A stretch of 26,224 nt of DNA from a virus. The DNA lies in the IMG/VR virus record IMGVR_UViG_3300025886_000135, positions 1-26,224 of that record; one strand, written 5' to 3'. The notes beneath the pieces are model-generated. The model saw nothing but the letters and a program-made list of their open reading frames with translations, ran no database searches and had not been told where the DNA came from. A program made the translations under genes and the position numbers. Below are positions 400-23,972 of the stretch, one piece after another. Positions within the stretch are counted from its first letter, which is position 1; every line of letters begins with the position of its first letter.

Positions 400-840
400 C
401 TATTGAGTTTTATTTCCGATATTGTATTTAGCAATTAAATCCCAATCGTTCTTGTCTTTATGAGTAATTATCTTTATCTGACCCAGAGGAACCAAAGGTT
501 CGGCACTCTTATTTACGTCAACTAAACTCAATAACCCCCACTCAGCCAAGAGATTCACGATGGTATTTCTGCGACCAAGATCATTCTCATTAAAATTAGA
601 CGCTTTTCCGTCTAGAGCAAAAAGCTCTTTGAAATGTACAATGTAATACTTGCCGCGTTTATGTAGTATATGACAGGATTGGAATAAAGCCTTTTCTTTA
701 CGACTAGCAATGCCAATACGAGTGAGTGTTTCTCGAATCTTCAGAAAATCTTCATCATCTGCTAATTCAACTTCTGCCAATGAATCTAAGTCAACTGGAA
801 CAGACTTATCATTGTCTCTGCCTCTTTGATCGCTTTCCAT
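400..840 (-). CDS. regA: RegA translational repressor of early mRNAs
   Basis: T4 RegA binds the initiation regions of early phage mRNAs, including those of the clamp and clamp-loader genes, and blocks their translation. Residues 31-72 (DFLKIRETLTRIGIA, then QSCHILHKRGKYYIVHFKE) closely follow T4 RegA, and the product ends in KYNIGN much as the T4 protein ends in KYTIGN. The protein carries about 22 extra acidic residues before the conserved core. The frame could open at a GTG at 852, but ATG 840-838 is preferred because GAGGTGG lies about 9 bases upstream and overlaps that GTG. The start lies inside the end of gene 62, so translation is probably coupled. It is the last gene of the 45-44-62-regA block, as in T4. 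Autoregulation is expected by homology and not shown here. Confidence 0.93.
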   Translation of the reverse strand: MESDQRGRDNDKSVPVDLDSLAEVELADDEDFLKIRETLTRIGIASRKEKALFQSCHILHKRGKYYIVHFKELFALDGKASNFNENDLGRRNTIVNLLAEWGLLSLVDVNKSAEPLVPLGQIKIITHKDKNDWDLIAKYNIGNKTQ

Positions 841-1222
841 TTTGAAGACCACCTCGTTTCAATCGTTTATGAATAAGAGATAGCTGGTCGCCCGTCAACA
901 CTTTGGCAATTTCATGAGCCTTTCTAAAGTTACAAGAATAATACTCTTTGATCGCATCAATGTCTTCATTTTTTTCAGGCTTCAACCATCTCGAAAACCG
1001 CTTCTTCTTTCTAATAGTATTTAGCAGATAGTCATTCTGCAAACGGCTGTCGAGGTGTCCCCGAAGGTTAACTTCATTTGCATGAAGCACTGTATCCTGA
1101 AAATATGACAAACTACGATTTACTACAAAGGGTACATACTCATTTTCTGTTAGGGGATCTTCATCCATTAAATTCTTCTTGCTAATGTTAATAGCAGTCA
1201 GAAAATCTCCCAGTTTAGCCAT
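809..1222 (-). CDS. 62: Clamp-loader small subunit (gp62-like)
   Basis: gp62 forms a 1:4 complex with gp44 that opens the sliding clamp and loads it onto primer-template DNA. The 137-residue protein has the core seen in short marine T4-like gp62 proteins: YVPFVVNRSLSYFQDTVLHA (about residues 29-48), HLDSRLQNDYLLN, a KKKRFSRWLKP patch and a terminal basic tail. It is shorter than T4 gp62 (187 residues), as expected for the marine branch, and sequence similarity to T4 itself is weak. It overlaps the preceding 70-codon gene as TAATG and overlaps regA at its own end, which indicates translational coupling through the block. Identity rests on the core motif together with position between 44 and regA. 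Confidence 0.88.
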   Translation of the reverse strand: MAKLGDFLTAINISKKNLMDEDPLTENEYVPFVVNRSLSYFQDTVLHANEVNLRGHLDSRLQNDYLLNTIRKKKRFSRWLKPEKNEDIDAIKEYYSCNFRKAHEIAKVLTGDQLSLIHKRLKRGGLQNGKRSKRQRQ

Positions 1223-1434
1223 TAGTCATCATCCTCTTCTTTAGTAAAAAGCATTCCACTCTCGGCTGAATATCCAGATTCAAGATACTTAGCAAATCGA
1301 GCCGAGGCTTCTAGTGTTAGAAAGGGCCCGAAGACCTTTGCACTCGGCTCCAAGTCAAACTCTACGCTTTCAAAGTCAACGATATAGAATCCACTGTCTC
1401 TACTAACAGTGGAAAGATTTGTCGAAATGTCCAT
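1222..1434 (-). CDS. Small acidic protein inserted between clamp-loader genes 44 and 62
   Basis: This 70-codon gene is joined to both neighbours by TAATG stop-start overlaps, so it is almost certainly translated with the clamp-loader subunits. In T4, genes 44 and 62 are adjacent with nothing between them. The protein has a likely short alpha/beta core (SGFYIVDFESVEFD, then KVFGPFLTLEASARFAKYLE) and an acidic tail (KEEDDD). No catalytic motif, membrane segment or metal site is visible. Its stoichiometric co-translation with gp44 and gp62 suggests a replication accessory role, but that is inference from context. I do not recognise the family. Confidence 0.82.
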   Translation of the reverse strand: MDISTNLSTVSRDSGFYIVDFESVEFDLEPSAKVFGPFLTLEASARFAKYLESGYSAESGMLFTKEEDDD

Positions 1435-2384
1435 TACTTGTACTCCAATTCTTTCATTAGTTCAGTTAAACATGCTACCAAATTTATTTCTGCATCAGCC
1501 ACAAAAGCTGCTTTATACTGATAATCCCCAATCAGAAGAACTGCCTGCGGAATGCTCTGCGGCTTAACATGCCCATACAATCCATCATAAACCAAACGAT
1601 AAATTCGTGATGGGTCATTATCGAGATTATCAACCACCCAACTACGCATGTTCTTAAAGTTTTTATCCTTCAAAGACTGCATGAGCTGTTTGATCGACTG
1701 CTCCGTGATAGTCGTGAGAATACCCGCATCAATCTCACCAGACACAGAGTATCGCTGCAACTCATTGATCACTCGGCGAAAATCAGGAAAGTGTTTAGTA
1801 ATCAGTTCAACCAGAACCTTTTCATTATACTTGACTGATTCCTTACCGAGAATCTCAATCACTCGCTTGAGCAAACTCATTGCGAGCTTCGGGCGATCCT
1901 TCTTGGAAAAGCGAAAATCAATAACACTACACCGACTATGAATCGGTTCAATGATACGATTTTTGAAATTACAAGTAAAGATAAATCCACAGTTCTTAGA
2001 GAACTCTTCAATAAACCCACGAAGTGCAGGTTGTGTCGATTGTGGATTAAGATAGTCAGCCTCATCGAGAATGACAATCTTCCGCTTGCCAGTGGAAGTG
2101 ATGGAAACACCGGACGCAAAGCTCCTTACATCATTGCGAAGCGTGTCGATGTTTCCGCTTTCACTTCCATTAATGATGATATAATCCACACCCAACTCCT
2201 CACAGAGAGCGCGGGCAACAGTAGTCTTGCCTGTACCTGCGGTCCCTGAAAGAAGAAGGTTCGGAATATCACCATTAGAAACGAACTCAAGGAATGTATC
2301 CTTCAGACCTCTCGGTAGAATACAATCCTCAATAGTTCGGGGTCGATACTTTTGACACCAAATAAAATCATCACGAAGTTCCAT
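1434..2384 (-). CDS. 44: Clamp-loader ATPase large subunit (gp44-like)
   Basis: gp44 is the AAA+ ATPase of the T4 clamp loader; with gp62 it loads the gp45 clamp at primer-template junctions. The 316-residue protein opens with WCQKYRPRTIEDCILP, the usual start of replication-factor-C type ATPases. It carries Walker A GTAGTGKT (residues 47-54), Walker B ILDEAD (105-110) and the arginine-finger SRC motif (150-152), followed by the helical lid and collar region. Length fits T4 gp44 (319 residues). The ATG at 2384 has AGAGGA about 11 bases upstream. It follows the clamp gene by a short 29-base gap and overlaps the downstream 70-codon gene by TAATG. All key catalytic residues are present. Confidence 0.96.
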   Translation of the reverse strand: MELRDDFIWCQKYRPRTIEDCILPRGLKDTFLEFVSNGDIPNLLLSGTAGTGKTTVARALCEELGVDYIIINGSESGNIDTLRNDVRSFASGVSITSTGKRKIVILDEADYLNPQSTQPALRGFIEEFSKNCGFIFTCNFKNRIIEPIHSRCSVIDFRFSKKDRPKLAMSLLKRVIEILGKESVKYNEKVLVELITKHFPDFRRVINELQRYSVSGEIDAGILTTITEQSIKQLMQSLKDKNFKNMRSWVVDNLDNDPSRIYRLVYDGLYGHVKPQSIPQAVLLIGDYQYKAAFVADAEINLVACLTELMKELEYK

Positions 2385-2413: not shown

Positions 2414-3091
2414 CTAGCCAGTGGTAACTGTAGAATACGCAGATTCACTAGAGATCCAGTATTCCAATTGAATATCCCTATGAGTAAATTGACCGATTCC
2501 TTGACCAGAAATCTTGACATCATAATCCCCCGGAAACAGCTTCAGATTATCCACAATAAAGGTGGCACAGAAATCTTCATCAAATTCAATATTGTCTGCC
2601 TTGAGGTCGATATCAAAACTATTTGAAGATCCTTTCGTCTTATCCGAAACATTAGCAACAAATGGATTAGTCTGAATACTCACATGAGGGAGATTCAAAA
2701 CACCTGCTGCCTTCCTAATTGACTTGAGGTTCTCATGAGTCAAAATAAACTCAAGATCCGCACTCGGCAAAGTAATATTATTCTGGGGAGCGGTTTGGAT
2801 CAGAGTGGGATCAGTATAACCATACCGAATCTTCTGCTTGCCAGAACTCACGTCCACATAATCATTATCAAATTCAAATGCAGGATCTTCCAAAAGACTA
2901 ATAGCACTAAGAAACTGGCTCAGTTCATAAATACCAAAATCCTTTGGGAAGGCTTCGTCTACAGTAGCCTTAGCCAGAATGTTTTTGCCAGCAGAGATTG
3001 TAAAAATATCCGACCCCGGATTAATTACAATAGATCCCTGAATTGACGAAAAGTTATTAAGAATAGAAAGTGTATCTTCACTGATCTTCAT
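2414..3091 (-). CDS. 45: DNA polymerase sliding clamp (gp45-like)
   Basis: gp45 is the trimeric ring that tethers the phage DNA polymerase and, in T4, also activates late transcription by contacting gp33 and gp55. The 225-residue product (MKISEDTLSILNNFSSIQ...) matches the length and N-terminal pattern of T4 gp45 (228 residues, MKLSKDTTALLKNFATI) and has the alternating beta pattern of a clamp. The frame can open upstream at 3118, but ATG 3091 is preferred because it gives the gp45-type N-terminus and has GGAG 9 bases upstream. It overlaps the end of the DUF3310 gene by 14 bases. The late promoters in this window imply that the clamp also serves late transcription here; that is inference from T4. 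Confidence 0.93.
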   Translation of the reverse strand: MKISEDTLSILNNFSSIQGSIVINPGSDIFTISAGKNILAKATVDEAFPKDFGIYELSQFLSAISLLEDPAFEFDNDYVDVSSGKQKIRYGYTDPTLIQTAPQNNITLPSADLEFILTHENLKSIRKAAGVLNLPHVSIQTNPFVANVSDKTKGSSNSFDIDLKADNIEFDEDFCATFIVDNLKLFPGDYDVKISGQGIGQFTHRDIQLEYWISSESAYSTVTTG

Positions 3092-3371
3092 TATCATTTT
3101 CTCCATCATTAAGTTCACTAAAATGCATCAACAATAAAGTATAATGCATTGCCTTCAATAAGTCGAGTTTGTTCTTACCCTTCTTCCTTCCATAACGAGC
3201 AATGTACTTCATAGCATTCCCTTGACAGAAATGCTCCGCAACACCGATTGAATTTAACAAATCTTGAATTTGAGTACCATTGTCATCAGCCCCAACATAA
3301 TGTTGGTTATATGTTTTTTCAATGTACTCTTCCACTTTTTTCAAATTATCTAATTCATTATATTTCCACAT
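3078..3371 (-). CDS. DUF3310 family protein
   Basis: This 97-residue protein has the DUF3310 signature: a Q-H-Y element near the N-terminus (YNQHYVGADD), a QIQDLLNSIGVAEHFCQGN stretch, then GNAMKYIARYGRKKGKNK and a closing DLLKAMHYTLLL helix. DUF3310 proteins are small and common in phages; some are annotated as nucleotide kinases, but the biochemical role is not established. The gene starts one base after the upstream glycosyltransferase stop codon and overlaps the start of gene 45, so it belongs to the replication operon. Only a weak GAAG ribosome site is visible, which suggests translational coupling. Family assignment is confident; function is not. Confidence 0.88.
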   Translation of the reverse strand: MWKYNELDNLKKVEEYIEKTYNQHYVGADDNGTQIQDLLNSIGVAEHFCQGNAMKYIARYGRKKGKNKLDLLKAMHYTLLLMHFSELNDGENDNEDQ

Positions 3372-6642: not shown

Positions 6643-7374
6643 TTAGCGATTTGAATATCTACTAGTCAGTCTCATTTGAATAGCATGTAGTCGATGATTT
6701 ATATCATCAAGGATCGTCGTATCGGTTGCGGTATTATCCAGAGATTGAGAAATGTCATTGAGTGATGAAATACAATCAGACATTTCAGTTAAAATATAAC
6801 GATCTTGAGGCGAAGACACTAAGCAATCAAGAAGCCCTAAAGAAACAAACCGATGACCTGAAGTAATAGTATTAACCCGATGAAGATATCCTGTAGGATA
6901 AAACAAAATTGTTCCGGCTGGTTCCTTAAATAAACTCACTCCATGCTCATGTTTAATTTCAAACTCACCGCCATCATATTCGCATGGATCATTTAAGAAT
7001 ATAGTAAAAGCAATATTAACTACAGTACCATGACCTGTACTTAAAAGGTCGAGATGCCAATCGTAATAATCATCTTGATCATATCGAGCTACTGTATTAA
7101 ATATTGGATTAAACTCACCGCATGTAACTTTTTCAGCAGTGGTCGCAGATAGATTATTTCCAGCATCGGAAGACCAAATAGTTTCTTTAATGAAAGCGCG
7201 ATCTATTACACTAACATGATGCGACCCCGGCCAGGTAGAATTATCAAATACAGTATTCTTCTGCCTACGAGCTTCCTCATCGCCATGAACACGTTTCCGT
7301 GGAATATCTTTAGCCATATTTAAAAGAATTTCTAATTGATTACGATTCAATGCATTTTCAATCTTCGTTATCAT
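6643..7374 (-). CDS. 2-oxoglutarate/Fe(II)-dependent dioxygenase (PKHD-type hydroxylase)
   Basis: The protein belongs to the prolyl-4-hydroxylase-like 2OG-Fe(II) family, which hydroxylates proteins or small molecules using O2 and 2-oxoglutarate. The metal site is complete: H107 and D109 in YDWHLD, H165 in YPTGYLHRVN, and R175 in GHRFVS to bind 2-oxoglutarate. The DGGEFEI strand typical of PKHD hydroxylases is at about 134-140. The last 60 residues form a helical extension. The start ATG 7374 has GGAGGG 5 bases upstream and lies 17 bases inside the end of the preceding metalloprotein gene. Such genes are frequent in marine T4-like phages; the substrate is unknown. Confidence 0.92.
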   Translation of the reverse strand: MITKIENALNRNQLEILLNMAKDIPRKRVHGDEEARRQKNTVFDNSTWPGSHHVSVIDRAFIKETIWSSDAGNNLSATTAEKVTCGEFNPIFNTVARYDQDDYYDWHLDLLSTGHGTVVNIAFTIFLNDPCEYDGGEFEIKHEHGVSLFKEPAGTILFYPTGYLHRVNTITSGHRFVSLGLLDCLVSSPQDRYILTEMSDCISSLNDISQSLDNTATDTTILDDINHRLHAIQMRLTSRYSNR

Positions 7375-7774
7375 CTAGACCCTCCGGGCTTTTGCCGTCT
7401 ATCAAATCGGACCAAAGCTGAGCATAAACTATACCAAACTCAGGACCGTGGTCGCCATATTTAAATGACTTGGCTTCTTCGACTTTTACATTCCCGCTCC
7501 ATGTGATTGCATGGGCAAGTTCATGAATAGCAATTACCATACACAAATCTCGACCATGTGGAGTAGTCATGTAAACTTCATCGAATGCAATTTCGATATA
7601 CTGAGTTTTCCCTTTTCCTTTGAGTTCTGTTGTTGCCCAACACCCTTCCATAGATTTCTTGGGCTTAAATGCAACTGTAATAGGAAAGGCGGGTATATGA
7701 CCAGACCATTCCGATTGTTTAATAAGCGTTCGGACTGCTTTCCGTCCGTTTATATTTTCTTTGCTTAGACTCAT
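7358..7774 (-). CDS. Small zincin-type metalloprotein (SprT-like fold possible)
   Basis: A 138-residue protein carrying the zinc-protease motif HELAH (84-88) in VIAIHELAHAITW, followed by GDHGPEF with a third candidate zinc ligand at H109. This layout (HExxH then H-GP-F about 20 residues later) resembles small SprT/WLM-like domains that act on DNA-bound proteins, but I cannot place it firmly. The start ATG 7774 has AGGA 5 bases upstream. It overlaps the 2OG oxygenase gene, so the two are translated together. It lies directly downstream of the tRNA-Pro gene. Confidence 0.85.
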   Translation of the reverse strand: MSLSKENINGRKAVRTLIKQSEWSGHIPAFPITVAFKPKKSMEGCWATTELKGKGKTQYIEIAFDEVYMTTPHGRDLCMVIAIHELAHAITWSGNVKVEEAKSFKYGDHGPEFGIVYAQLWSDLIDGKSPEGLDDNED

Positions 7775-7792: not shown

Positions 7793-7869
7793 TGGTCGGG
7801 GATGCAGGATTTGAACCTGCGGCTTTCTGCTCCCAAAGCAGACACTCTACCAGACTGAGCTAATCCCCG
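7793..7869 (-). tRNA. tRNA-Pro (UGG)
   Basis: The minus strand folds into a full cloverleaf. Acceptor CGGGGAT pairs with ATCCCCG, the anticodon loop TTTGGGA gives UGG, and the T arm is GCAGG-TTCAAAT-CCTGC. The discriminator is A and the CCA end is encoded. It abuts the tRNA-Leu gene with no base between them. Confidence 0.95.
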
Positions 7870-7956
7870 TGGTGTCGGATGCGGGAATCGAACCCGCAAG
7901 ACCATATGGTCGGGAGATTTTAAGTCTCCTGCGTATACCAATTCCGCCAATCCGAC
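7870..7956 (-). tRNA. tRNA-Leu (UAA)
   Basis: Class II tRNA with a long variable arm. Acceptor GTCGGAT pairs with ATCCGAC, anticodon loop CTTAAAA lies on stem GGAGA/TCTCC giving UAA, and the T arm is GCGGG-TTCGATT-CCCGC. CCA is encoded. The 3' end touches the 5' base of tRNA-Pro, so the pair must be separated by precise RNase P cleavage. Confidence 0.95.
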
Positions 7957-7965
7957 ATAACATAT

Positions 7966-8154
7966 TCATTTATTCTTTCGATCTTCCTTCCGTTTTTTCG
8001 CCGCCAAAAATCTACGTTCTTTACGATTTAGATATATGAGATCCTCGGGCAAAAGATCCTTCCAAGAATCGTCTTGCCAATTTAAACGAATATGCTCGGA
8101 ACGGACCCCAAGTTGGTTTCCGTATTTCTTCTTAGAAGTTATTTTTTTTCTCAT
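7966..8154 (-). CDS. Small basic protein between tRNA genes
   Basis: A 62-residue, strongly basic protein (MRKKITSKKKYGNQLG..., ending KERRFLAAKKRKEDRKNK) with a tryptophan-containing middle (NWQDDSWKDLLPEDLIYL). Three in-frame starts are possible (TTG 8172, ATG 8160, ATG 8154); ATG 8154 is chosen because AAGGA lies 8 bases upstream. It sits between tRNA-Leu and tRNA-Thr on the same strand. A nucleic-acid-binding role is plausible from charge alone. No family is recognised. Confidence 0.68.
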   Translation of the reverse strand: MRKKITSKKKYGNQLGVRSEHIRLNWQDDSWKDLLPEDLIYLNRKERRFLAAKKRKEDRKNK

Positions 8155-8181
8155 AATCATTATCCTTATCAAATTAAAAAA

Positions 8182-8256
8182 TGGAGCCTTCTATCCGACT
8201 TGAACGGATGACCTGCTCATTACAAGTGAGCTGCTCTACCACTGAGCTAAGAAGGC
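8182..8256 (-). tRNA. tRNA-Thr (UGU)
   Basis: Complete cloverleaf on the minus strand. Acceptor GCCTTCT pairs with AGAAGGC, anticodon loop CTTGTAA on stem GCTCA/TGAGC gives UGU, and the T arm is ATCCG-TTCAAGT-CGGAT. Discriminator T, CCA encoded. A TTTTTTAATTT trailer follows the CCA. Confidence 0.95.
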
Positions 8257-8264
8257 ATTAAAAA

Positions 8265-8351
8265 TGGTGGAGGGAGGAGGATTTGAACCTCCGTAGGCAT
8301 TATGCCAGCAGATTTACAGTCTGCCCCGTTTAACCGCTTCGGTATCCCTCC
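8265..8351 (-). tRNA. tRNA-Tyr (GUA)
   Basis: Class II tRNA with a long variable arm. Acceptor GGAGGGA pairs with TCCCTCC, anticodon loop CTGTAAA on stem GCAGA/TCTGC gives GUA, and the T arm is GGAGG-TTCAAAT-CCTCC. CCA is encoded. Eight bases separate it from tRNA-Thr. Confidence 0.95.
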
Positions 8352-8361
8352 GATAATCATG

Positions 8362-8754
8362 TTAGCTATTGAACTTAGATATTCGATGTTTCAATTCAGA
8401 ACTACTCCACCCATGACCCCTTGGAATAATTTCAATATCAATATCCAAATCGCTACCCGTAAAATCATTTCGATCTTTATAGTCTTCGCCTAAGAAACGA
8501 ACACTCGGCGCTAGAGCTATTAACAATGTTTCAAGTTCATGCTCATGTTGATATACTACAATTTCATCTACATACTTGCAGGCTTGCAATTGTAAAAATC
8601 TTTCGGAAACCAATTGTACGACCACGTTCTTATGTGCTGGAAATGTGTGAAAGGCAGCGATCAAATGATCACACCGCTCGCTCGCATATCTCAAAGCACA
8701 CACATGACCCGGATGAAGCAGATCCCAACACGAAGCAATTATTCCAGTTTTCAT
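8362..8754 (-). CDS. Cytidylyltransferase-like nucleotidyltransferase (TagD/RfaE type)
   Basis: A 130-residue protein of the HxGH nucleotidyltransferase family, which joins a nucleotide to a phosphorylated alcohol or sugar, releasing pyrophosphate. The motif HPGH is at residues 14-17 in SCWDLLHPGHVCALRYA, and SERFLQLQACKYVDEIVVY follows as in TagD and RfaE-C domains. The expected ISST-like C-terminal motif appears as SSSELKHRI near the end. The product may be an activated sugar or glycerol for a glycan or modified nucleotide; the substrate is not shown. ATG 8754 is chosen over TTG 8757 because GGAG lies 7 bases upstream. It is embedded between tRNA-Lys and tRNA-Tyr on the same strand. Confidence 0.87.
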   Translation of the reverse strand: MKTGIIASCWDLLHPGHVCALRYASERCDHLIAAFHTFPAHKNVVVQLVSERFLQLQACKYVDEIVVYQHEHELETLLIALAPSVRFLGEDYKDRNDFTGSDLDIDIEIIPRGHGWSSSELKHRISKFNS

Positions 8755-8781
8755 CAATCATCTCCATATTAAATTAAAAAA

Positions 8782-8857
8782 TGGTGAACCCCCTGAGACT
8801 CGAACTCAGAACCTAAAGGTTAAAAGCCTTTTGCTCTACCAATTGAGCTAGGGGTCC
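8782..8857 (-). tRNA. tRNA-Lys (UUU)
   Basis: Cloverleaf with acceptor GGACCCC against GGGGTTC (one G-U pair), anticodon loop CTTTTAA on stem AAAGG/CCTTT giving UUU, T arm CTGAG-TTCGAGT-CTCAG, discriminator A and encoded CCA. The same TTTTTTAATTT trailer as after tRNA-Thr follows. Confidence 0.94.
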
Positions 8858-8860
8858 ACA

Positions 8861-8937
<77 letters not shown>

Positions 8938-8951
8938 GTGGTATCAATCAT

Positions 8952-9212
8952 TCATGACGGACCCTTCATCCAGTTTTCATCATCCGCACTGACCCACTCA
9001 TCGTCATTATCATCATCAAGGCCTGCCATGAAGGCGGGATCGTCATAGTATGAATCGTCAGGCTCAAACACGTCACCGAGAAAATCAGACAAATCAACTC
9101 GGACCTTATTAATAGACAGTTTCAAGTGAGCAATGTCATCAGGATCTTTTAGATTATCCAACACGACACCTAACGGCGACAAAATCTCTTCAATCAAATT
9201 TTTCTTCATCAT
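8952..9212 (-). CDS. Unknown small acidic protein
   Basis: An 86-residue protein with a helical N-terminal half (KKNLIEEILSPLGVVLDNL, then IAHLKLSINKVRVDLSDFL) and an acidic tail rich in D and E (LDDDNDDEWVSADDENW). Two adjacent ATG codons at 9212 and 9209 share the ribosome site AAGGA, at 4 and 7 bases; the second may be the real start. It lies between tRNA-Arg and a 26-codon membrane ORF. No family is recognised. Confidence 0.72.
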   Translation of the reverse strand: MMKKNLIEEILSPLGVVLDNLKDPDDIAHLKLSINKVRVDLSDFLGDVFEPDDSYYDDPAFMAGLDDDNDDEWVSADDENWMKGPS

Positions 9213-9219
9213 ATTATCC

Positions 9220-9300
9220 TTATCGTGTAATGTTTACTACGAACAAGATCGCAGCCAGTGATAAATTAAAAAACATCAAACCTTTTTCAAGACGACCCAT
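9220..9300 (-). CDS. Predicted 26-residue single-pass membrane microprotein
   Basis: ATG 9300-9298 opens a 26-codon frame ending at TAA 9222-9220. It starts MGRLEKGL and continues with a hydrophobic core (MFFNLSLAAILFVVNI), long enough to cross a membrane once, ending TR. A strong ribosome site (GAGGGGAG) lies 6 bases before the ATG. The frame fills the gap between its neighbours exactly: it overlaps the upstream gene by 14 bases and ends 7 bases before the downstream start, as expected for a real gene in this packed operon. It follows the positive-inside pattern poorly (R and K at the N-terminus, R at the end). Function is unknown. Confidence 0.55.
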   Translation of the reverse strand: MGRLEKGLMFFNLSLAAILFVVNITR

Positions 9301-9490
9301 CAAAACTCCCCTCGTTTTCATCAACTAGAAACAATTCACCTTCCAATTGTGCAATAGCACTTGCTACCACATGATCAACAAGATCCCTATCAACATCGCC
9401 TTGTATACTATCTAGGTCAATTTGAATCTGGTCCAAAACCAATTCCGAAGCAATATCAAACGCATCAAGTGTTAGTGTAAATCCCATCAT
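9287..9490 (-). CDS. Unknown small acidic protein
   Basis: A 67-residue acidic protein (MMGFTLTLDAFDIASELVLDQIQIDLDSIQ...), probably helical with two amphipathic stretches and a polar end (VDENEGSFDGSS). GGAG lies 5 bases before ATG 9490, and the start overlaps the stop of the preceding gene by 4 bases (ATGA). It is in the same packed operon as the tRNA genes. No family is recognised. Confidence 0.72.
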   Translation of the reverse strand: MMGFTLTLDAFDIASELVLDQIQIDLDSIQGDVDRDLVDHVVASAIAQLEGELFLVDENEGSFDGSS

Positions 9491-9744
9491 TCAATCTCCT
9501 CAATTACATTAAAATTATCATCCATACGTTCCGATACCCAACGACCATCTTGCCCCCACTTTTCGCAAGTGGAACATTTACAGTTAATAGATTCCAGCCA
9601 CAACCAAGGACCGGGGGCATTTGATGAACGAACGAAACCTTTACCAAGTTCCCCATCAACAATCCGACCCACTTTCCAAAGATCGCCATGTTGACTGACA
9701 CGATTCTTGCCGTGTCTCGTTTTACCTTTTAGTTTAACTTTCAT
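9487..9744 (-). CDS. Unknown small protein with CKCSTC motif
   Basis: An 85-residue protein starting MKVKLKGKTRHGKNRVSQHG, a start I have seen in uncharacterised proteins of marine phages, followed by tryptophan-rich strands (GPWLWLESINCKCSTCEKWG) and an acidic end. The cysteine cluster (residues about 55-60) could bind a metal but has only one good CxxC pair. GGGAGA lies 10 bases before ATG 9744 and overlaps the stop of the upstream gene. Function is unknown. Confidence 0.76.
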   Translation of the reverse strand: MKVKLKGKTRHGKNRVSQHGDLWKVGRIVDGELGKGFVRSSNAPGPWLWLESINCKCSTCEKWGQDGRWVSERMDDNFNVIEEIE

Positions 9745-9747
9745 GTT

Positions 9748-10191
9748 TTAAAAGTCTCCCTTGAGCCCAATGGTCTTCAGAACCTTGACTCGGTTGATGT
9801 GATTTTGTTTGATGTTACCGGGATTATATGTGTCTTCGGCATGACGCTTGATCGTTGCCGTCGCAATATAACAACAACCTTGTGCCAAAGGCGTATCCTG
9901 CTCGCTTTGAATATCTTCACTAAAACTAACGAAAACATTACCTGCTTCATCCACAAATGTGAAAACATCAAAGTTGCGACCAGTTGACTTTCGTTTCACA
10001 AACTTCAGAAAGAAATGTGCCCGTTCCGCCGGTTTGCCTACATGCATCGGGACATGACTAGAGGGAGGTCCGTCTACATAAGGACGGCTAATCGAAACAG
10101 ATTCAACTAGCTTACCACTGATCCCTTTCTTTGGAACATCTTCCATATAATTATAACCATGACCATCGAGAACTACTTCTGTACTTGACAT
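9748..10191 (-). CDS. Unknown phage protein, 147 residues
   Basis: A beta-rich protein with strands such as FFLKFVKRKSTGRNFDVFTFVD and a C-terminal GCCYIATATIKRHAED then HINRVKVLKTIG. The last pattern (ATIKRH followed by T/H-INRVK) recalls OB-fold-like domains in phage replication proteins, but the resemblance is weak and I do not assign a function. AGGAA lies 7 bases before ATG 10191. It sits just downstream of tRNA-Met. Confidence 0.74.
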   Translation of the reverse strand: MSSTEVVLDGHGYNYMEDVPKKGISGKLVESVSISRPYVDGPPSSHVPMHVGKPAERAHFFLKFVKRKSTGRNFDVFTFVDEAGNVFVSFSEDIQSEQDTPLAQGCCYIATATIKRHAEDTYNPGNIKQNHINRVKVLKTIGLKGDF

Positions 10192-10233
10192 AACAACTTT
10201 CCTGAACGTGATAGTAAAATGAAACTGAATGAG

Positions 10234-10309
10234 TGGTGGGCTGGGTGGGACTCGAACCCACGACCATCCGGTTATGAGCCGGGGGCTCTAACCACTGAGC
10301 TACCAGCCC
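10234..10309 (-). tRNA. tRNA-Met (CAU)
   Basis: Cloverleaf with acceptor GGGCTGG pairing CCAGCCC, anticodon loop CTCATAA on a CCGG/CCGG stem giving CAU, T arm GTGGG-TTCGAGT-CCCAC and encoded CCA. A fully paired acceptor end argues against an initiator tRNA. CAU could also be an isoleucine tRNA if the C is modified to lysidine; the sequence alone does not separate these. Confidence 0.93.
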
Positions 10310-10336: not shown

Positions 10337-11566
10337 TTAGAAAGGAACCAGATCCGTCTTAACGCGGTCATCGTTACCAGCAACCTCCTCTACAGTATCA
10401 TCAGCAGGAGACTTAGCATCGGCATCAATCTTCTTATAAAGATCAACAAACGATTCCTTCGTTTCCTCATCGAACCGAGCAACACAAAGCTCGACTGCCT
10501 TGAGACGATCACCGAAGATCGAGAACGCCTTGGCAATGTGAATCAATCGACGAGTCGCAATGATCTCGTCAACCCCACCATCGAAGAACGTCTTACGAAT
10601 GGTGTCTGCCCAACTAACAAGCAGACCAGCAAACTCATTATCCTCGACACCGAGAATCTTGAGTTCCTTCGCAACGATCTTCTTCTCAACAGTCATCGAA
10701 GGATAGGATTGTTCAAACGTAATCGGGAACCGCTCAAGGAACGCTTCGTTCAGTACGTTAGTTCCGATGAAGCGACCAGCCTCATCACCCTTACCCTTAG
10801 TGTTTGCAGTAGCAACAATGTTGAAACCCGGAGCAGGCTCAACCACTTCACCAATCTTTTTGAGAAAGAGAGGCTTGCCTTCAAGCACCGGCTGGAGGCA
10901 CATGATCTTATTAGAAGCAAGATCAATTTCGTCGAGAAGCAAAACAGCACCACGCTCCATTGCTTCCGTCACCGGACCCTTCTGATAAACGGTCTGCCCG
11001 TCAATCAATCGAAAGCCGCCGATCAAATCATCCTCATCGGTTTCAATAGTAAGGTTGACGCGAATGCATTCACGACCAGCCTTGGCACATGCCTGCTCAA
11101 CACCGAACGTCTTACCGTTACCGGAAAGACCAGTGATGAACATCGGGTAGAACATTTCCGAAGAAATGATCGTATGCCAATCAGCGAAAGAACCAAAGGG
11201 AACGAAGTTCTTAGACTTCGCCGGAACCAGACTGTTAAGCAACTGAGTCCGAACCGAAGAAGCAGCAGCCGGTGCAGAAACTTCTGCATCAGTAACCGGA
11301 GTAGCAACCTTCTTGGATACCTTCTTCTTGGCTACCCGCTTAACAGCAGGACCAGCAGAACCACCCTCAAATGGAGCCGGGACCGAATAGAGTCCGCGAC
11401 CAGCAGCAAACTTACCACCCATCAACCAAGTAGGGGTGGGAAGATCGTTATCCGCGCAGATTGACATAACCTGCGTTCGCGTAATGGTCGATCCGAATTC
11501 CTTCGTCGCAATAGCGATGAAAGCATTCTTGTCCGCAATAGTAGCACGACCTTGACGATTAGACAT
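10337..11566 (-). CDS. MoxR/CobS-like AAA+ ATPase
   Basis: An AAA+ ATPase of the MoxR/CobS group, which remodels partner proteins that usually carry a VWA domain. The 409-residue protein has an N-terminal HTH-like domain (10-62, TITRTQVMSICADNDLPTP then GRGLYSVP), an alanine/lysine linker (75-103), then the ATPase core: Walker A GLSGNGKT (146-153), the MoxR-type insert TDEDDLIGGF (177-185), Walker B LLLDEID (209-215) and sensor 1 VATANTKG. Marine phage homologues are often labelled CobS (cobaltochelatase); a chelatase role is not established. ATG 11566 (MSNRQG) is preferred to 11575 because GAGGT lies 10 bases upstream of it. It is the last gene of the unit starting at 14631, directly downstream of the VWA-zincin gene. 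Confidence 0.93.
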   Translation of the reverse strand: MSNRQGRATIADKNAFIAIATKEFGSTITRTQVMSICADNDLPTPTWLMGGKFAAGRGLYSVPAPFEGGSAGPAVKRVAKKKVSKKVATPVTDAEVSAPAAASSVRTQLLNSLVPAKSKNFVPFGSFADWHTIISSEMFYPMFITGLSGNGKTFGVEQACAKAGRECIRVNLTIETDEDDLIGGFRLIDGQTVYQKGPVTEAMERGAVLLLDEIDLASNKIMCLQPVLEGKPLFLKKIGEVVEPAPGFNIVATANTKGKGDEAGRFIGTNVLNEAFLERFPITFEQSYPSMTVEKKIVAKELKILGVEDNEFAGLLVSWADTIRKTFFDGGVDEIIATRRLIHIAKAFSIFGDRLKAVELCVARFDEETKESFVDLYKKIDADAKSPADDTVEEVAGNDDRVKTDLVPF

Positions 11567-11628
11567 ATTAAACATTACCTCTTTTTTTTATTTGAAATAC
11601 AAACTAACATTGAGTGAAACAAAGTTTA

Positions 11629-14100
11629 CTAAGCGATAGTCTCAATAAACTTCTTGAGCAGAACTCGGGACTTGATCTTGCCCTTGGAACCCTTCTTGAA
11701 TGCCGTGCGAATCTGTGCAACCTTTGCACCATCGGCAACTGAATCAAGCGCATTGCCATCATCAATCTTCAGAGAAGAGCCGCCACGAATAGCGAAGCGA
11801 ACATCATAACCACGACAACCAGTGACAACAGCACCGTCCTTCTTCAGAACCTCATACGCATCGTCGCGAGCATCTTTGCCCATCAGACCACCAAGCTCTT
11901 GCTTGGCAGTTCGACCATTCTCGGGAAGAACGAAGAACCCTACGATGCGAGCATCCGTGCGAGCCTTCAGACCTTCAAGAACGAAAGCAGTCTGATGCTT
12001 GCGATCATAACGACGACCCTCCGCCTTTTCGGTTTTACGAGTCGCTTCATCATAAAGAAACGTATCCGACTTATAATCAGTAAGGCCGGTTCGTATCGGT
12101 ATGTCATTCCCTTGATGGTCAGCCCGATAGTAAAGGGGATTTGAATCCCCGTCGCTCAGAATAACAAGATTGCAAATCTGAACACCAGTCTTATCACGAA
12201 AATTCTTGACAAGACCAGAAGCCAAAATCATAGCATCGTTCAGTGGAGTTGAACCCAAGACATCCGCATCACACGGCTTCATGTAATACTTGTCAACCCA
12301 ATGACCATCGCTACTAGTCCGATTCCCATACGAAGAATATGATGCCCAAAATTCCTTCATGAAGAAGATATATTCAAGAGCCTTCTTAAACATACCAGCC
12401 TTCAAGTCAGAAGAGATGAACTTCCGAAGGTATACCTCATGATCAATCATCACATCGTTATGATTATATTGATGAATGTCAACGGAAGCCAATGAATGAA
12501 GTGTGTCATTGAATCCATACACTTCAAACGGAATCTGAACCCGCTTGCAGAACAGAACCAGATTGATCAACTGCTCCAGAGTGCCAGCCATGTTAGGCTG
12601 CATGGAACCCGAAAGATCCAGCATCATAACCATGCCATGATTCTTGGCATCAGGCGCGATTGACTTGCGAAGGAAAAGATCCTCATCATACTTGTAAGCA
12701 TGAAGTTTGCCGACGTTAATAACACCAGTACGAGCAGTTGAAGAACGTCGATGTTGGTCAGCAGCCTTCTTCATATCAAACTCTTTTGCCATCAAGGAGA
12801 CGACAGGCTTGACCGAAGAAACATACTTCGCACACTCAGCCGAAAGCTCAGTCTGAAAAGCAGCGACATTTTCATCACCGTTTCGATTAAGATGATACTC
12901 CTGCTTATTAGCAAACTCCTCAAGAATTTGTTTCTCGTCATGAACATACTTCGTATAATCAACACGATCAAACGGGATCGCGCAGCGACGAGTAGCAGAA
13001 CCAAATGAATCCGAAAGCGACTCTGCGTTATCACGACTAGCAACGTCCGTCTCAGAGGAAGGATCAAAGTCAGGATTAGCAGCGTCACTCTTGCCAGCAT
13101 CCCCCGTAGTTACATCGCCGTCGCCGTCCTCGTCGCCATCATCGTCTGAATCGAAGTCGGAAGAATCATCACCATCATCGTCATCCTCATCAGCATTGGA
13201 ACCAGAGCTTGCCGAATCATCATCACCCTCGTCATCACCCTCGTCATCACCGTTAGGCGAATTAGTTTCCGAAGAATCATCAGACTCGTCGTCCGAATCA
13301 TCAGACGATTTATCATCATCAGGAGAATCGGAATCACCGTCATCAGAAGAAATGCCATCGCTGGAACCCGAATCGGAATCATCAGGCTCACCATCTTCAT
13401 CAGGCTCACCATCTTCGCAAGGCTCACCCTGAGCATCCTGATCGGGATTGTCTTCAGTATCCAACATGTATTCATAAATGTCGGTGGCAAGAGCAACCGC
13501 TTCATCGAACGACTCAAGACCATAACCGCGATCAAGAAAACTTTTCTCATCGTCATTATGAAACGGAATCACCGAAGCAAGATCCGAACCACACTTGAAT
13601 CGAATATTCAAGCGATCCGCAATGTTACCATTATCAGCAACATCAGCGAGAGAGTCCCCGAAGAAACCCGCATCAATCAATCGCTTGTATCCTTCGTTGA
13701 AGTCGGTACGAAGACCGGGATACTTGCGCTTAACACGCTTCTCAATACGAACGTCTTCGGTGACATTCAGAATCGAGCGATACCCGTCCTTCTTACCATA
13801 CGCAGCAGGGATCGAAGGATTTTCCCACGCATCAACCGGAGTGTATAGCGCGTGACCAACCTCATGACCCGCGAAGAGAAGATAGCAAACCTTCGGCATA
13901 TCCTTAAAAGCCGGAAGAGTCAGAGTCCGAGTTTTTGTGTTGAACATCGCAGTATGAGCAGAAGGATCATGAATAACATTCAAATCCTCGGTGGCAAACA
14001 ACTTGGCAAGCTGATTAAGAGCAGTCAAGTTAACCGGAACAGCGGAACGACCGTGAGCGTTTCGCTCGGGAGCAGTTAGTGCATCAGGGTGGAAATTCAT
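11629..14100 (-). CDS. CobT-like VWA protein with N-terminal zincin motif
   Basis: An 823-residue, three-part protein. Residues 1-215 hold a metallopeptidase-like domain with HEVGH at 79-83 (CYLLFAGHEVGHALYTP), followed by NVTEDVRIE (112-120) whose E115 could be the third zinc ligand. Residues about 219-333 are a very acidic D/E/S/G linker with short repeats (GEPDEDGEPD, DDEGDDEGDD). The C-terminal part has a VWA domain with the MIDAS motif DLSGSM (495-500), a STPLND threonine and ILSDGDS. CobT subunits of cobaltochelatase share the acidic linker plus VWA layout and pair with CobS, matching the adjacent MoxR gene. ATG 14100 is chosen over TTG 14121 (AAAGG 10 bases upstream). Substrate and protease activity are unknown. 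Confidence 0.92.
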   Translation of the reverse strand: MNFHPDALTAPERNAHGRSAVPVNLTALNQLAKLFATEDLNVIHDPSAHTAMFNTKTRTLTLPAFKDMPKVCYLLFAGHEVGHALYTPVDAWENPSIPAAYGKKDGYRSILNVTEDVRIEKRVKRKYPGLRTDFNEGYKRLIDAGFFGDSLADVADNGNIADRLNIRFKCGSDLASVIPFHNDDEKSFLDRGYGLESFDEAVALATDIYEYMLDTEDNPDQDAQGEPCEDGEPDEDGEPDDSDSGSSDGISSDDGDSDSPDDDKSSDDSDDESDDSSETNSPNGDDEGDDEGDDDSASSGSNADEDDDDGDDSSDFDSDDDGDEDGDGDVTTGDAGKSDAANPDFDPSSETDVASRDNAESLSDSFGSATRRCAIPFDRVDYTKYVHDEKQILEEFANKQEYHLNRNGDENVAAFQTELSAECAKYVSSVKPVVSLMAKEFDMKKAADQHRRSSTARTGVINVGKLHAYKYDEDLFLRKSIAPDAKNHGMVMMLDLSGSMQPNMAGTLEQLINLVLFCKRVQIPFEVYGFNDTLHSLASVDIHQYNHNDVMIDHEVYLRKFISSDLKAGMFKKALEYIFFMKEFWASYSSYGNRTSSDGHWVDKYYMKPCDADVLGSTPLNDAMILASGLVKNFRDKTGVQICNLVILSDGDSNPLYYRADHQGNDIPIRTGLTDYKSDTFLYDEATRKTEKAEGRRYDRKHQTAFVLEGLKARTDARIVGFFVLPENGRTAKQELGGLMGKDARDDAYEVLKKDGAVVTGCRGYDVRFAIRGGSSLKIDDGNALDSVADGAKVAQIRTAFKKGSKGKIKSRVLLKKFIETIA

Positions 14101-14154
14101 AATTATAAAACCTTTAATCAAAGAAACGAAGAGGAGAAACTCAGAACTAACAGA

Positions 14155-14631
14155 CTAACGAAGCGACCGCGAAGCGCGGACCATCTTATCGTGTGCTAGT
14201 CGCGACTTGTCTAGAGAGTTGACACCAGAACCACCAGAGATGCGGACCTTACTGGATCGCTTGAATCCCGCAGAAGTTCTAGTCGGAAGAACATCAATAG
14301 AACCACCGTTCGCAAGGAACGCTCTCATCGACTTGGAGTCGGAAGAACCAGAAGACAACCGAAGAGTATGATCGGCAGAAGCACGAGTGACTCGCTTCGC
14401 TGCTTTGGGAAAAACGAGGGACTTGAATTCGACCCGCGCAGTCCGAACCTTGGAAGCATCGACAGCAGCAGCGAGTCGGATGTTAGTCGCGATGGCTCGC
14501 TTGATCGCAGCAGGGCGATGATGGAGCGGAAGCGACAAGATCCGATCGGCACCAGTTAGAGAATCGTCCCCAACAGCAAGCAGAATATCGGCAAGAGTGG
14601 TAAAACGGGCAGTAACGGAAAGTCTGGTCAT
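14155..14631 (-). CDS. Unknown basic protein leading the MoxR-VWA operon
   Basis: A 158-residue, strongly basic protein (MTRLSVTARFTTLADILLAVGDD..., ending HDKMVRASRSLR) rich in R, S and A. It has a predicted helical N-terminal half and a low-complexity, serine- and glycine-rich C-terminal half. No family or catalytic motif is recognised. ATG 14631 is preferred to TTG 14649 because GAGGAG (overlapping that TTG) sits 10 bases upstream. It is the first gene after a near-consensus sigma70 promoter and precedes the VWA-zincin gene by 54 bases, so it is probably an early protein made with the ATPase pair. A substrate or adaptor role is only a guess. Confidence 0.78.
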   Translation of the reverse strand: MTRLSVTARFTTLADILLAVGDDSLTGADRILSLPLHHRPAAIKRAIATNIRLAAAVDASKVRTARVEFKSLVFPKAAKRVTRASADHTLRLSSGSSDSKSMRAFLANGGSIDVLPTRTSAGFKRSSKVRISGGSGVNSLDKSRLAHDKMVRASRSLR

Positions 14632-14661
14632 AATGATTTTTCTCCTCAATCAACGTGGCCA

Positions 14662-14690
14662 ATTATACCGCAGCATACCCTCTAGGGCAA
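14662..14690 (-). promoter_or_regulatory. Near-consensus sigma70 promoter for the MoxR-VWA operon
   Basis: On the minus strand TTGCCC (14690-14685) is followed after exactly 17 bases by a perfect TATAAT (14667-14662). Transcription would start near 14655, about 25 bases before the ATG at 14631, leaving just room for the GAGGAG ribosome site. No TATAAATA late element is present. This marks the operon as early, read by host RNA polymerase. Confidence 0.75.
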
Positions 14691-17396: not shown

Positions 17397-17867
17397 TTAA
17401 TCGTTTTTAAAAGACTCACTAGTCTCCCCATACGCTGCTATCTGGGCATCAATATCGCCCTTCCCGTAGACAAGGTGACCAGAACTAAAAGAAGATTCCC
17501 AATTTGATGTTATGCTATCTGATGATGACATTCCCTCATCGTACCAATAGGGTGCATATGATCGCAATTTAGTTTTGCTCGTTGATGATATGATTTGGTC
17601 GATTAATCCATCTCTCGTTGCGTCAAATAGCGTGATGAAATAAGCCCGTTCAGAACTAATACAAGTAGCAGTTAAATATGTGTTTGGTTGAATGCGGTGT
17701 TCTGCGACTCCAGTCAAAATGGTTTGGTTAACATCTATTGATCCTTCAGCTAACACAATAGAATAATCCTCATCGACAGCCCAATCGTAATTAATCGTTT
17801 CGCCACTCTCTAGCATATTTAATATTGCTAGTGTTTCTGTAGTAAATGATACTCTTGATGTTGCCAT
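17397..17867 (-). CDS. Beta-rich structural-type protein, paralogue of the 23520-23972 product
   Basis: A 156-residue protein whose first 95 residues align with the product at 23520-23972: MATSRVSFTTETLAILNMLE against MATTKCSFNTETLCVFNMLD, then GETINYDWAVDEDYSIV, HRIQPNTYLTAT, ERAYFITLF and QIISSTSK. Later parts also align (YWYDEG, NWESSFSSGH), with a diverged end. The strand pattern is compatible with a cupin-like or jelly-roll fold, though no metal-binding histidines are obvious. AGGA is 7 bases before ATG 17867. It probably belongs to the virion because it follows the late promoter at 18326 and a structural-type gene. No specific role is known. Confidence 0.8.
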   Translation of the reverse strand: MATSRVSFTTETLAILNMLESGETINYDWAVDEDYSIVLAEGSIDVNQTILTGVAEHRIQPNTYLTATCISSERAYFITLFDATRDGLIDQIISSTSKTKLRSYAPYWYDEGMSSSDSITSNWESSFSSGHLVYGKGDIDAQIAAYGETSESFKND

Positions 17868-19291: not shown

Positions 19292-19900
19292 ATGTATACA
19301 AGTCTAAATTCAGAAATTAAAAATATACTCGATCCAAATGAAACCGAATACGATTCGGGTGAGGACGTTATCACAATATTGGAGTTCATGATGATTGTGG
19401 ATTCAGGTGATATGCTATTGGCTGAAGAGCGGGGCGAAAGTGTAAAAAACCTTTTCGCAAAAGTGTCAAGTAAGCTGGGGTTCGCCGCAAAGAATAAAAA
19501 AAATCTCCTTGGACTCCTTGGTTCTATTGGACAAACTGGAGCAAAGGCTATTTTATATTCGATCCAAGCCACCGCTGGAAACGAAGGCGCAAAAGAAAAA
19601 CTTGCACAAGTTCTTAAAAATTCTAATGCAAAATCTGAAATTATAGATTTTGTTATTCGCGCAGATGTATTGACCCTACATTTAATCAGTACGCCGATTC
19701 ATATGATTGATGCGATTGCAGGTTTTGATATTGCAGAAAAGATTAGAGAGAAGGCTGTTGGTGGCGGGGAAAGACTTAAAGATGCTGTTGACTTAATCCA
19801 AAAATCTGCAAAGAACCTCGGAAATCCCTCAACTGCACGAAAAGTCAAAAAAAGTTTGAATACAATTAAAAAGGTATTTTCTTTGAAGGCTGTAGAATGA
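19292..19900 (+). CDS. Unknown late protein, first gene of the rightward operon
   Basis: A 202-residue helical protein: MYTSLNSEIKNILDPNETEY, ITILEFMMIVDSGDMLLAEE, a lysine-rich stretch (GFAAKNKKNLLGLLGSIG), then IIDFVIRADVLTLHLISTPI and a basic C-terminal half (STARKVKKSLNTIKKVF). The frame opens at 19253, but that start would lie upstream of the late promoter; ATG 19292 is preferred because GGGAGG lies about 5 bases before it. Its stop overlaps the next ATG (ATGA). The N-terminal MLLAEE could act as a processing site (L-A-E), but this is speculation. No family is recognised. Confidence 0.82.
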   Translation: MYTSLNSEIKNILDPNETEYDSGEDVITILEFMMIVDSGDMLLAEERGESVKNLFAKVSSKLGFAAKNKKNLLGLLGSIGQTGAKAILYSIQATAGNEGAKEKLAQVLKNSNAKSEIIDFVIRADVLTLHLISTPIHMIDAIAGFDIAEKIREKAVGGGERLKDAVDLIQKSAKNLGNPSTARKVKKSLNTIKKVFSLKAVE

Positions 19901-20745
19901 AAAGATTTAACGAAGTATATAAAAATTCTGGTCTAGGCAAGTGGTTCCATAATCAATCTGCTGGGGGAGAACCCGGATGGGATCGTTATGATAGCACAGG
20001 AAAGAAATCTGGAAAGTGTGGAGACTCTAAAGACGGTGAACCATATGCTGCGTGTCTATCCAAGCAAAAGGCACAGAAGCTAGGAAAGAAAGGTGTTTCA
20101 TCTTTTGTAAAACGAAAGAGAAAGGCTCAGAGTTCCGCAGGGAAACCCGATAAGGGTGACGGCGGGCGGGGGTCAAAGCCTATTAATGTCAAAACTGGCG
20201 TCACAGACAAAGACCCAAAGAAAAAAGGAATCCAAGAGATGAAGTCATTCCGTGAACTAACAGCAGAACTACAAGAAAAGAACGAACCTACTAATCCCAA
20301 GCTATGGTCATCTGTCATTTCGCAAGCCCGGTCCAAGTTTGATGTGTACCCCTCTGCGTATGCTAACGCATGGGCATCCAAGCAATACAAGAGCAAGGGT
20401 GGCGGCTGGAAAAGTGTGAAGGAAGAAGAAGTCGATTGTGGATGCGAAGCCTGCTCCGAAGAGCGCATTGACGAGAAGTCTGCTGCATGGCAACGCAAGG
20501 CGGGAAAGAATAAAGAAGGTGGATTGAATGCTGCCGGAAGAAAATCATACGAAAGAGAAAATCCCGGCAGCGATCTAAAGGCTCCGGTGTCTGCTGCACA
20601 AGCCAAGAAGAGTGGCAAGGGTGGCAAGGCAGCAAATAGACGCAAATCATTCTGCGCTCGCATGGGTGGAATGCCAGGCCCAATGAAGGACGAGAAGGGA
20701 AGACCAACTCGCAAAGCTCTGGCTCTACGAAAGTGGGATTGTTAA
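19897..20745 (+). CDS. Two-part DUF-type protein with DUF6321-like end and possible internal start
   Basis: The 282-residue product appears to be a fusion of two modules. Residues 1-113 start GLGKWF and contain GGEPGWDRYDSTGKKSGKCG, GEPYAACLS and KKGVSSFVKRKRKAQ. Residues 115-282 begin MKSFRELTAELQEKN, continue with a FDVYPSAYANAWASKQYK element and end with RRKSFCARMGGMPGPMKDEK, TRKALALRKWDC, which I recall as DUF6321-like, common in marine phages. The second module has its own ATG at 20239 with AAGGA 10 bases upstream, so a separate 168-residue protein is possible. Both modules are basic. The start is set by ATGA overlap with the previous gene. Function is unknown. Confidence 0.85.
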   Translation: MKRFNEVYKNSGLGKWFHNQSAGGEPGWDRYDSTGKKSGKCGDSKDGEPYAACLSKQKAQKLGKKGVSSFVKRKRKAQSSAGKPDKGDGGRGSKPINVKTGVTDKDPKKKGIQEMKSFRELTAELQEKNEPTNPKLWSSVISQARSKFDVYPSAYANAWASKQYKSKGGGWKSVKEEEVDCGCEACSEERIDEKSAAWQRKAGKNKEGGLNAAGRKSYERENPGSDLKAPVSAAQAKKSGKGGKAANRRKSFCARMGGMPGPMKDEKGRPTRKALALRKWDC

Positions 20746-20746
20746 G

Positions 20747-21070
20747 ATGATCAATGAAGGATATAGTAGACAATCAATAAAAAATATGCCTACGGAAAAA
20801 CTAGGAACTCTTTATAAGTGGCTCAAGTTTGGTCGAGGGGATGACCACATTAAAAATGGAGATTCCGATTTAAAAGATCGTCGCGATCTTATTGGCAGCG
20901 AATTGGGAAAACGCGCTCGAAAGGGTGATGATAATGCCAAGCGACATCTGAATAATCGGTTCAATAATCAGGTCGATAAATATGGAAAGAGTGTCCCGAT
21001 AAAATCCGCACCACCCAAAAACTCACTACCGCAGAAGATAATGCGTATGCTAAAAGGAAAGATGAAATGA
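20747..21070 (+). CDS. Unknown small basic protein
   Basis: A 107-residue, lysine/arginine-rich protein (MINEGYSRQSIKNMPTEKLG..., ending PQKIMRMLKGKMK) with helical stretches containing RRDLIGSELGKRARKGDDNA. It begins one base after the upstream stop codon and overlaps the kinase gene by ATGA, so all four plus-strand genes are probably translated in series. No motif for a known function is visible; basic charge suggests nucleic-acid binding or packing. Confidence 0.8.
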   Translation: MINEGYSRQSIKNMPTEKLGTLYKWLKFGRGDDHIKNGDSDLKDRRDLIGSELGKRARKGDDNAKRHLNNRFNNQVDKYGKSVPIKSAPPKNSLPQKIMRMLKGKMK

Positions 21071-22976: not shown

Positions 22977-22984
22977 ATCTGCAT

Positions 22985-23519: not shown

Positions 23520-23972
23520 TTACCAATCTCCTAATAATATCTGATCATCAATCGCCGTTTTTGTTAAAGTATAATTTCCAGATGCGAATATACTTTCCCA
23601 TGACATTTCCAAATTATCTGAAAAGTCTGGCGCACCATATTCATACCATGTTGGTGTGTGATTTCTCATTTTATTTTTTGATGTCTGATTTACAATTTGG
23701 TTGGCAATATGATCTATATCTATTCTGAATAGTGAAATGAAATAGTTCCGACCAGAACTAGTTGCCGTCGCGGTTAAATTTTCATTTGGTTGAATTCTAT
23801 ATTCATTCACCGAATTTACCAATGTCGAATTTTGAAACCTTACAGATCCTTCTAGAACAACAACCGAGTAGTCAGTATCTAAACTCCAATTATAATCAAT
23901 CGTTTCGCCTTCATCGAGCATGTTGAAAACACAAAGTGTTTCTGTATTAAATGAACATTTCGTCGTTGCCAT
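23520..23972 (-). CDS. Beta-rich structural-type protein, paralogue of the 17397-17867 product
   Basis: A 150-residue protein that aligns with the 17397-17867 product from the first residue through NMLDEGETIDYNW, DYSVVVLEGSV, YRIQPNENLTAT, RNYFISLF and TSKNKMRN, then TWYEYGAP and WESIFASGNYT. The end differs. Because the DNA copies are well diverged, the duplication is not recent. It lies directly downstream of the adhesin-associated 70-residue gene, in the late unit fed by the promoter at 25625. The fold may be cupin-like or jelly-roll, without obvious metal ligands. Confidence 0.8.
   Translation of the reverse strand: MATTKCSFNTETLCVFNMLDEGETIDYNWSLDTDYSVVVLEGSVRFQNSTLVNSVNEYRIQPNENLTATATSSGRNYFISLFRIDIDHIANQIVNQTSKNKMRNHTPTWYEYGAPDFSDNLEMSWESIFASGNYTLTKTAIDDQILLGDW

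Follow-up and report, generated by a model that had tools for sequence, protein, structure and literature searches.

We analysed a 26,224-base viral sequence from IMG/VR (record IMGVR_UViG_3300025886_000135; G+C 41.5%), referred to here as the window, which has no end repeats and is therefore probably a fragment. It carries an operon of three minus-strand genes that an initial annotation, made from the sequence alone, had delimited correctly (Table 1) and that encode a basic protein (P0003), a VWA protein (P0001) and a MoxR-type ATPase (P0002). Our analysis suggests that P0002 and P0001 together constitute a remodelling machine of the MoxR-VWA kind, which incorporates a metallopeptidase and is active in the replication phase of infection, a reading to which we assign a probability of roughly 60%. 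That the pair is a MoxR-VWA machine and not a chelatase appears highly probable, and the N-terminal domain of P0001 is probably an active peptidase.

The zinc-protease motif that the initial annotation had noticed in P0001 is borne out by its conservation. The protein bears an HExxH motif with a downstream glutamate as third ligand, the signature of gluzincins, and the four residues concerned (H79, E80, H83 and E115) are found without exception in the 93 T4-like loci whose N-terminus is intact. They are also invariant in alignments A1 and A4 and in a set of 94 proteins, with the qualification that the 94-sequence alignment holds HExxH-bearing proteins only, that the three proteins omitted from it end at contig edges, and that one search pattern contained NVxED, so that E115 was partly pre-selected whereas HExxH was not. 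AlphaFold modelled the N-terminal domain confidently, with a mean predicted local distance difference test (pLDDT) score of 90, as a zincin-like fold, and a fold search of the PDB placed mostly zincins at the top ranks (abylysin, selecase, jannalysin, ArdC, and M61 and M1 peptidases), all of them weak matches with E values above 0.1. At the other end of the protein, the MIDAS residues D495, S497, S499, T618 and D650, where DLSGS spans residues 495-499, are invariant in 94 of 94 aligned proteins. The best PDB matches of the VWA domain in the full P0001 model are the NorD VWA, from NorQ-NorD, and the MDN1 MIDAS domain, from midasin, both of which are partners of MoxR-group AAA+ proteins.

P0002 has a complete set of AAA+ motifs (Walker A at residues 146-153, Walker B at 209-215, Arg279), matches Pfam AAA_5 (1.3e-18) and phrog_249 (1.8e-120), and finds midasin, CobS, NorQ and CbbQ in the PDB; Walker A is present in all 85 ATPase homologues. 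An in-frame ATG 9 bases upstream of the P0002 start would lengthen the protein to 412 residues. The pairing of a MoxR-type ATPase with a VWA protein, as first proposed, is upheld by the AAA_5 match, by the adjacent VWA gene with its complete MIDAS, and by a VWA fold that lies nearest to NorD and midasin. By eye, residues ~8-67 of P0002 (window 11366-11545) resemble a short winged-helix module that is conserved in relatives, and in the ATPase of a Klebsiella SSU5-type phage a CxxC zinc-finger-like N-terminus takes the place of this module.

The mechanism that we propose would begin with P0002 assembling into an AAA+ ring and hydrolysing ATP. P0001 would bind this ring and hold a client protein at its MIDAS metal site, and the client would then be passed over the long acidic tether to the N-terminal zinc peptidase (HExxH and Glu115), which would cut or trim it. 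The target of the machine during the replication phase would be a protein of the phage or the host, one that would likely be linked to DNA replication or recombination, and the pair would insert no cobalt into corrins. The assignment of the client to replication or recombination is itself a tentative part of this proposal.

Gene neighbourhood and expression timing

Searches of phage records with tblastn found homologues of P0001 in 463 records and of P0002 in 528, and scans of IMG/VR yielded at least ~80 further loci. When genomes were searched for cellular relatives of the pair, the only hits were phage-like contigs within host assemblies. Contigs L100-L119, assigned by binning to Flavobacteriales, Chloroflexi, Euryarchaeota, Planctomycetota and other groups, have the T4-like gene order and look like phage, not host. 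In 83 of 96 loci the two genes share a strand, with the ATPase gene directly 3' of the VWA gene, and most of the others end too soon. Three loci (L035, L037 and L038) show an inverted VWA gene, opposite in orientation to all of its neighbours and still adjoining the ATPase gene, and in two (L062 and L066) the VWA gene has no ATPase gene nearby despite several kb of sequence.

In T4-like phages the order that recurs is gp55, gp47, gp46, VWA, ATPase, gp45, gp44, gp62 and RegA, and a peptide deformylase gene often stands between gp46 and the VWA gene (L005, L010, L018, L019 and many others). Phages that infect Synechococcus, Pelagibacter and Ochrobactrum have the pair in the slot that separates gp46 from gp45, as does a 188-kb contig of a Nonlabens assembly. 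The lineage of the window keeps the downstream half of this order, with the T4-like replication genes gp45, gp44, gp62 and RegA all present, and has other genes in place of the upstream half on the gp46/gp47 side. Outside the T4-like group, SSU5, Cyrano, Nican01 and a Rhizobium phage have the pair next to DNA polymerase III alpha and DNA ligase, and ICP2 has it next to primase and helicase; BUCTxx99 groups it with polymerase III alpha, primase, helicase and a recombinase, and in one Gordonia phage primase and DnaB are a few kb away. We prefer a replication-phase role to one in virion assembly mainly because the pair sits beside replication genes, which is circumstantial evidence.

The initial annotation had also placed a sigma70 promoter before the operon. 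Motifs of this type are no more frequent in the window than expected by chance (14 found against 13.2 expected), and we therefore turned to conservation as evidence for the promoter-like site. L014 and L015, the two closest relatives, do not differ from the window over approximately 30 bases spanning it while the flanks vary, and the site is not conserved in L003 or L020. Late-type ATAAATA motifs precede several genes at 18-19 kb of the window, and none lies near the operon; their number (9 against 7.2 expected) is not significant, and their positions alone are informative. Taken together, the conserved sigma70-like site, the lack of a nearby ATAAATA motif and the replication neighbours would be indirect evidence for early timing of the operon. 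A literature search on the expression timing of the pair found nothing.

Several observations weigh against a replication-phase protease-remodeller. Phage genes cluster by expression time, and position is therefore weak evidence for the identity of the client. In Roseobacter CRP-810 and Gordonia Chelms, no replisome gene lies within the stretch of ~5 kb that was read around the pair, and among the 110-kb phages several may be relatives of one another and hence would not be independent cases. No zincin in the PDB matches the N-terminal domain of P0001 at an E value below 0.001. Finally, two or more related phage proteins, among them those of Nican01 and BUCTxx99, have lost HExxH, and the pair can therefore do something without proteolysis.

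Relation to CobT and alternative roles

It has been proposed that phage CobS and CobT work with the CobN of the host to make cobalamin (PMC8651126). P0002 is indeed of the CobS type, hhalign detects similarity between the VWA regions of the phage proteins and of CobT (E 1.9e-6, probability 90%), the N-terminal domain of P0001 is tied to CobT through SSU5-type phages as described below, and CobN was found in some hosts (Prochlorococcus, Synechococcus and a Rhodobacteraceae bin). However, P0002 scores 80.2 bits on the CobS equivalog model TIGR01650, below its cut-off of 558.55, and P0001 has no match to Pfam CobT or CobT_C or to NCBIfam TIGR01651. As the initial annotation had said, CobN is missing from the window, itself probably a fragment; it is likewise missing from the 14 pair-bearing complete phage genomes searched. 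The pair also occurs in phages of E. coli (e.g. PhiR41_1, for which a K-12 host is listed), whose control genome shows no CobN, and on a phage contig of the Nonlabens assembly, with no CobN in the Nonlabens genome. The usual argument is that extra B12 would feed the phage ribonucleotide reductase. This argument is unsupported, because the four complete T4-like phages tested all encode the small subunit of a class I reductase, and no class II enzyme scored above cut-off in any of them. Moreover, the zinc ligands that are fixed in the phage proteins are absent from cellular CobT. On the strength of the CobN search, the CobS and CobT models and the class of ribonucleotide reductase, we disfavour the cobaltochelatase reading and consider it very improbable.

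A family relationship with CobT is nevertheless detectable in the N-terminal domain. Direct profile comparison of the T4-like domain with CobT is not significant (0.054 to 0.14), but the T4-like profile matches the N-terminal domain of SSU5-type and related phages (3.5e-15), and the SSU5-type profile in turn matches CobT (8.3e-7 over 115 columns, against 0.28 for a reversed control). In the latter alignment the phage DHEVAH stands opposite DAYALR of CobT and the third-ligand glutamate is kept. The SSU5 protein, in which HExxH is intact, is a Pfam CobT member (2.1e-37), and six cellular CobT proteins of alphaproteobacterial origin lack HExxH. On the simplest reading, CobT would carry a zincin-derived domain minus the zinc site, a direction of change that we infer, and would thus bear a pseudo-peptidase domain; we found no paper that describes CobT as a metallopeptidase or as zincin-derived, which is a weak negative. 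A broader version strikes us as doubtful: in it the pair would be an ATP-dependent protease-remodeller devoted to phage replication and conserved across unrelated phages, and cellular CobT a relative whose peptidase domain has lost its zinc site, so that a subunit of a B12 enzyme and a phage protease would have a common ancestor. Profile comparison supports the family link, but neither the replication role nor the direction of change. The VWA protein of Cyrano (L153, 5992-8100) is annotated as 'dimethylbenzimidazole phosphoribosyltransferase', a misnomer that probably arose from confusion with the enterobacterial CobT.

The lost motifs bear on the idea that the HExxH domain has a structural or peptide-binding role, possibly as in CobT, and that only ATP-driven remodelling matters. 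Although HExxH is missing from this domain in cellular CobT and in two phage proteins, all three zinc ligands are fixed in the T4-like set, and we regard a purely non-proteolytic remodeller as rather unlikely. We think it somewhat more unlikely still that the pair is a virion-assembly chaperone that remodels and trims structural proteins, a role proposed by analogy with Acidianus two-tailed virus (ATV) (PMC7824862). The domain make-up equals that of the jumbo-phage system for which this was suggested, ATV ORF892 is weakly matched in the fold search, and T4-like phages do require prohead processing; nonetheless, the pair lies in the replication block and not the structural block of almost all T4-like loci, neighbours polymerase, primase or ligase in several further groups of phages, and belongs here to an operon without a late-type motif close by. 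Equally unlikely in our view is a host-takeover or counter-defence machine that would dismantle or cut a host protein early in infection. In its favour, the promoter-like site and the replication-block position would suit early or middle expression, the pair occurs across very different hosts, and the weak fold matches of the N-terminal domain include the antirestriction metalloprotein ArdC. Against it, one and the same pair is conserved in phages of cyanobacteria, SAR11, Bacteroidota and Proteobacteria, which points to a conserved and perhaps phage-encoded client, and PADLOC, which covers defence but not counter-defence, gave no match to defence-related families. Membership of a defence system was rejected on the same PADLOC result.

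The basic protein and other features of the window

P0003 is a real gene under purifying selection, as judged from a ratio of nonsynonymous to synonymous substitution rates (dN/dS) of ~0.15-0.18 relative to two close relatives (L002/L001) and from changes that fall mostly at third codon positions. Its family has five known members, all from one lineage and each directly upstream of the VWA gene. The initial annotation had suggested the basic protein as an adaptor or substrate of the ATPase-VWA pair; this does not hold in general, since the pair occurs in hundreds of phages that have no P0003, and we rejected P0003 as a general third component. The basic protein is a lineage-specific add-on and not a core part of the machine. 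All five members have a sub-threshold match to the RNA-polymerase-binding domain of SutA (SutA-RBD; best E 0.0015), which may serve as a lead only.

Table 1. Positions of the operon, its predicted promoter-like site and protein domains, and the T4-like replication genes in the window
Feature	Position	Strand	Evidence
Promoter-like site TTGCCC-17-TATAAT, upstream of operon	14662..14690	minus	10/12 consensus matches; conservation
P0003, basic lineage-specific protein, 158 amino acids, isoelectric point 11.8	14155..14631	minus	dN/dS against L002/L001; 5 known members
P0001, metallopeptidase-VWA protein, 823 amino acids	11629..14100	minus	phrog_459 'peptidase' 1.6e-159; structure model
P0001 N-terminal zincin-like domain, residues 20-218	13447..14043	minus	HEVGH 79-83, third ligand Glu115; model pLDDT 90
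P0001 acidic disordered linker, residues 216-345	13066..13455	minus	61 Asp/Glu against 2 Lys/Arg; pLDDT <50 over 220-340
P0001 VWA domain with MIDAS, residues ~483-823	11632..12654	minus	D495, S497, S499, T618, D650; PDB matches
P0002, MoxR/CobS-type AAA+ ATPase, 409 amino acids	10337..11566	minus	AAA_5; phrog_249; PDB matches
gp45 sliding clamp	2414..3118	minus	40% identity to S-PM2 gp45, 4e-54
gp44 clamp loader	1434..2384	minus	57% identity to HTVC008M gp44, 4e-139
gp62 clamp loader	809..1222	minus	phrog_225; 45% identity to S-PM2 gp62
RegA translational repressor	400..852	minus	60% identity to S-PM2 RegA, 1e-56

Seven tRNA genes (Pro, Leu, Thr, Tyr, Lys, Arg and Met) lie at window 7793-10309, one of them directly 3' of the ATPase gene. 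Beyond these, window 7358-7774 encodes an SprT-like protein with a HELAH motif of its own (Pfam 5.4e-5, just under the cut-off), a second zincin in this gene block. On the plus strand are genes for a DUF6321 protein (19897-20745; 5e-25) and a zeta-toxin-like P-loop kinase (21067-21816; 1.9e-10), and window 21891-22994 encodes a ferritin-like diiron protein with weak matches to AurF, DUF455 and phenol hydroxylase and no PHROG match. The proteins at 17397-17867 and 23520-23972 are 50% identical to one another and possibly represent a duplicated structural protein; family scans of the former gave no match.

Comparison with known systems

Few of the core genes that marine T4-like phages do not share with T4 are as widespread as this pair, which is routinely classed as an auxiliary B12 gene. 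The B12 reading is probably wrong for its T4-like and SSU5-type members, which affects many tallies of auxiliary metabolic genes, and a zinc peptidase coupled to a MoxR ring in the replication phase offers a testable hypothesis in its place, for which some pair-bearing phages have laboratory hosts. The pair is already known in phages under two descriptions, as viral CobST and as MoxR with a metallopeptidase-VWA protein. Under the former, cobS is a cyanophage core gene (PMC3037559, PMC2984593) and cobST a two-gene cluster of tailed viruses whose cobT is held to be 'mistakenly annotated as a peptidase' (PMC8651126); under the latter, jumbo phages of group 2.2 encode MoxR and a metallopeptidase-VWA fusion proposed to act in virion assembly (PMC7824862). 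In S-CREM1 the ATPase is named MoxR, and the MoxR protein is not named among the 14 virion proteins reported, four of which are called structural and nine unknown (PMC9964418).

The closest counterpart of the pair in the window is the phrog_459 and phrog_249 pair of Kyanoviridae, with which it shares full-length homology (~55% identity in the ATPase), gene order and the gp46-gp45 slot. The lineage of the window differs from it in having P0003 upstream, other genes at the usual place of gp46 and gp47, and a longer acidic linker. The jumbo-phage system has the same N-terminal metallopeptidase fused to a VWA domain and the same MoxR partner, but virion assembly was proposed for it, whereas gene position in the window points to the replication phase. 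CobST and cellular CobS-CobT share the architecture of N-terminal domain, acidic linker and VWA domain, with detectable similarity in both domains; unlike them, the phage pair lacks CobN, retains an intact zinc site and falls under all curated CobS and CobT cut-offs. NorQ-NorD, CbbQ-CbbO, RavA-ViaA and midasin likewise combine a MoxR-group ATPase with a MIDAS-type VWA domain. Their clients are known enzymes or ribosome precursors, and their VWA partners are not known to carry this HExxH N-terminal domain. What is new here is the conservation of the zinc site and MIDAS, the slot among replication genes and the link to the N-terminal domain of CobT through SSU5-type phages, and these comparisons suggest that 'peptidase' is a better label than CobT for the T4-like members.

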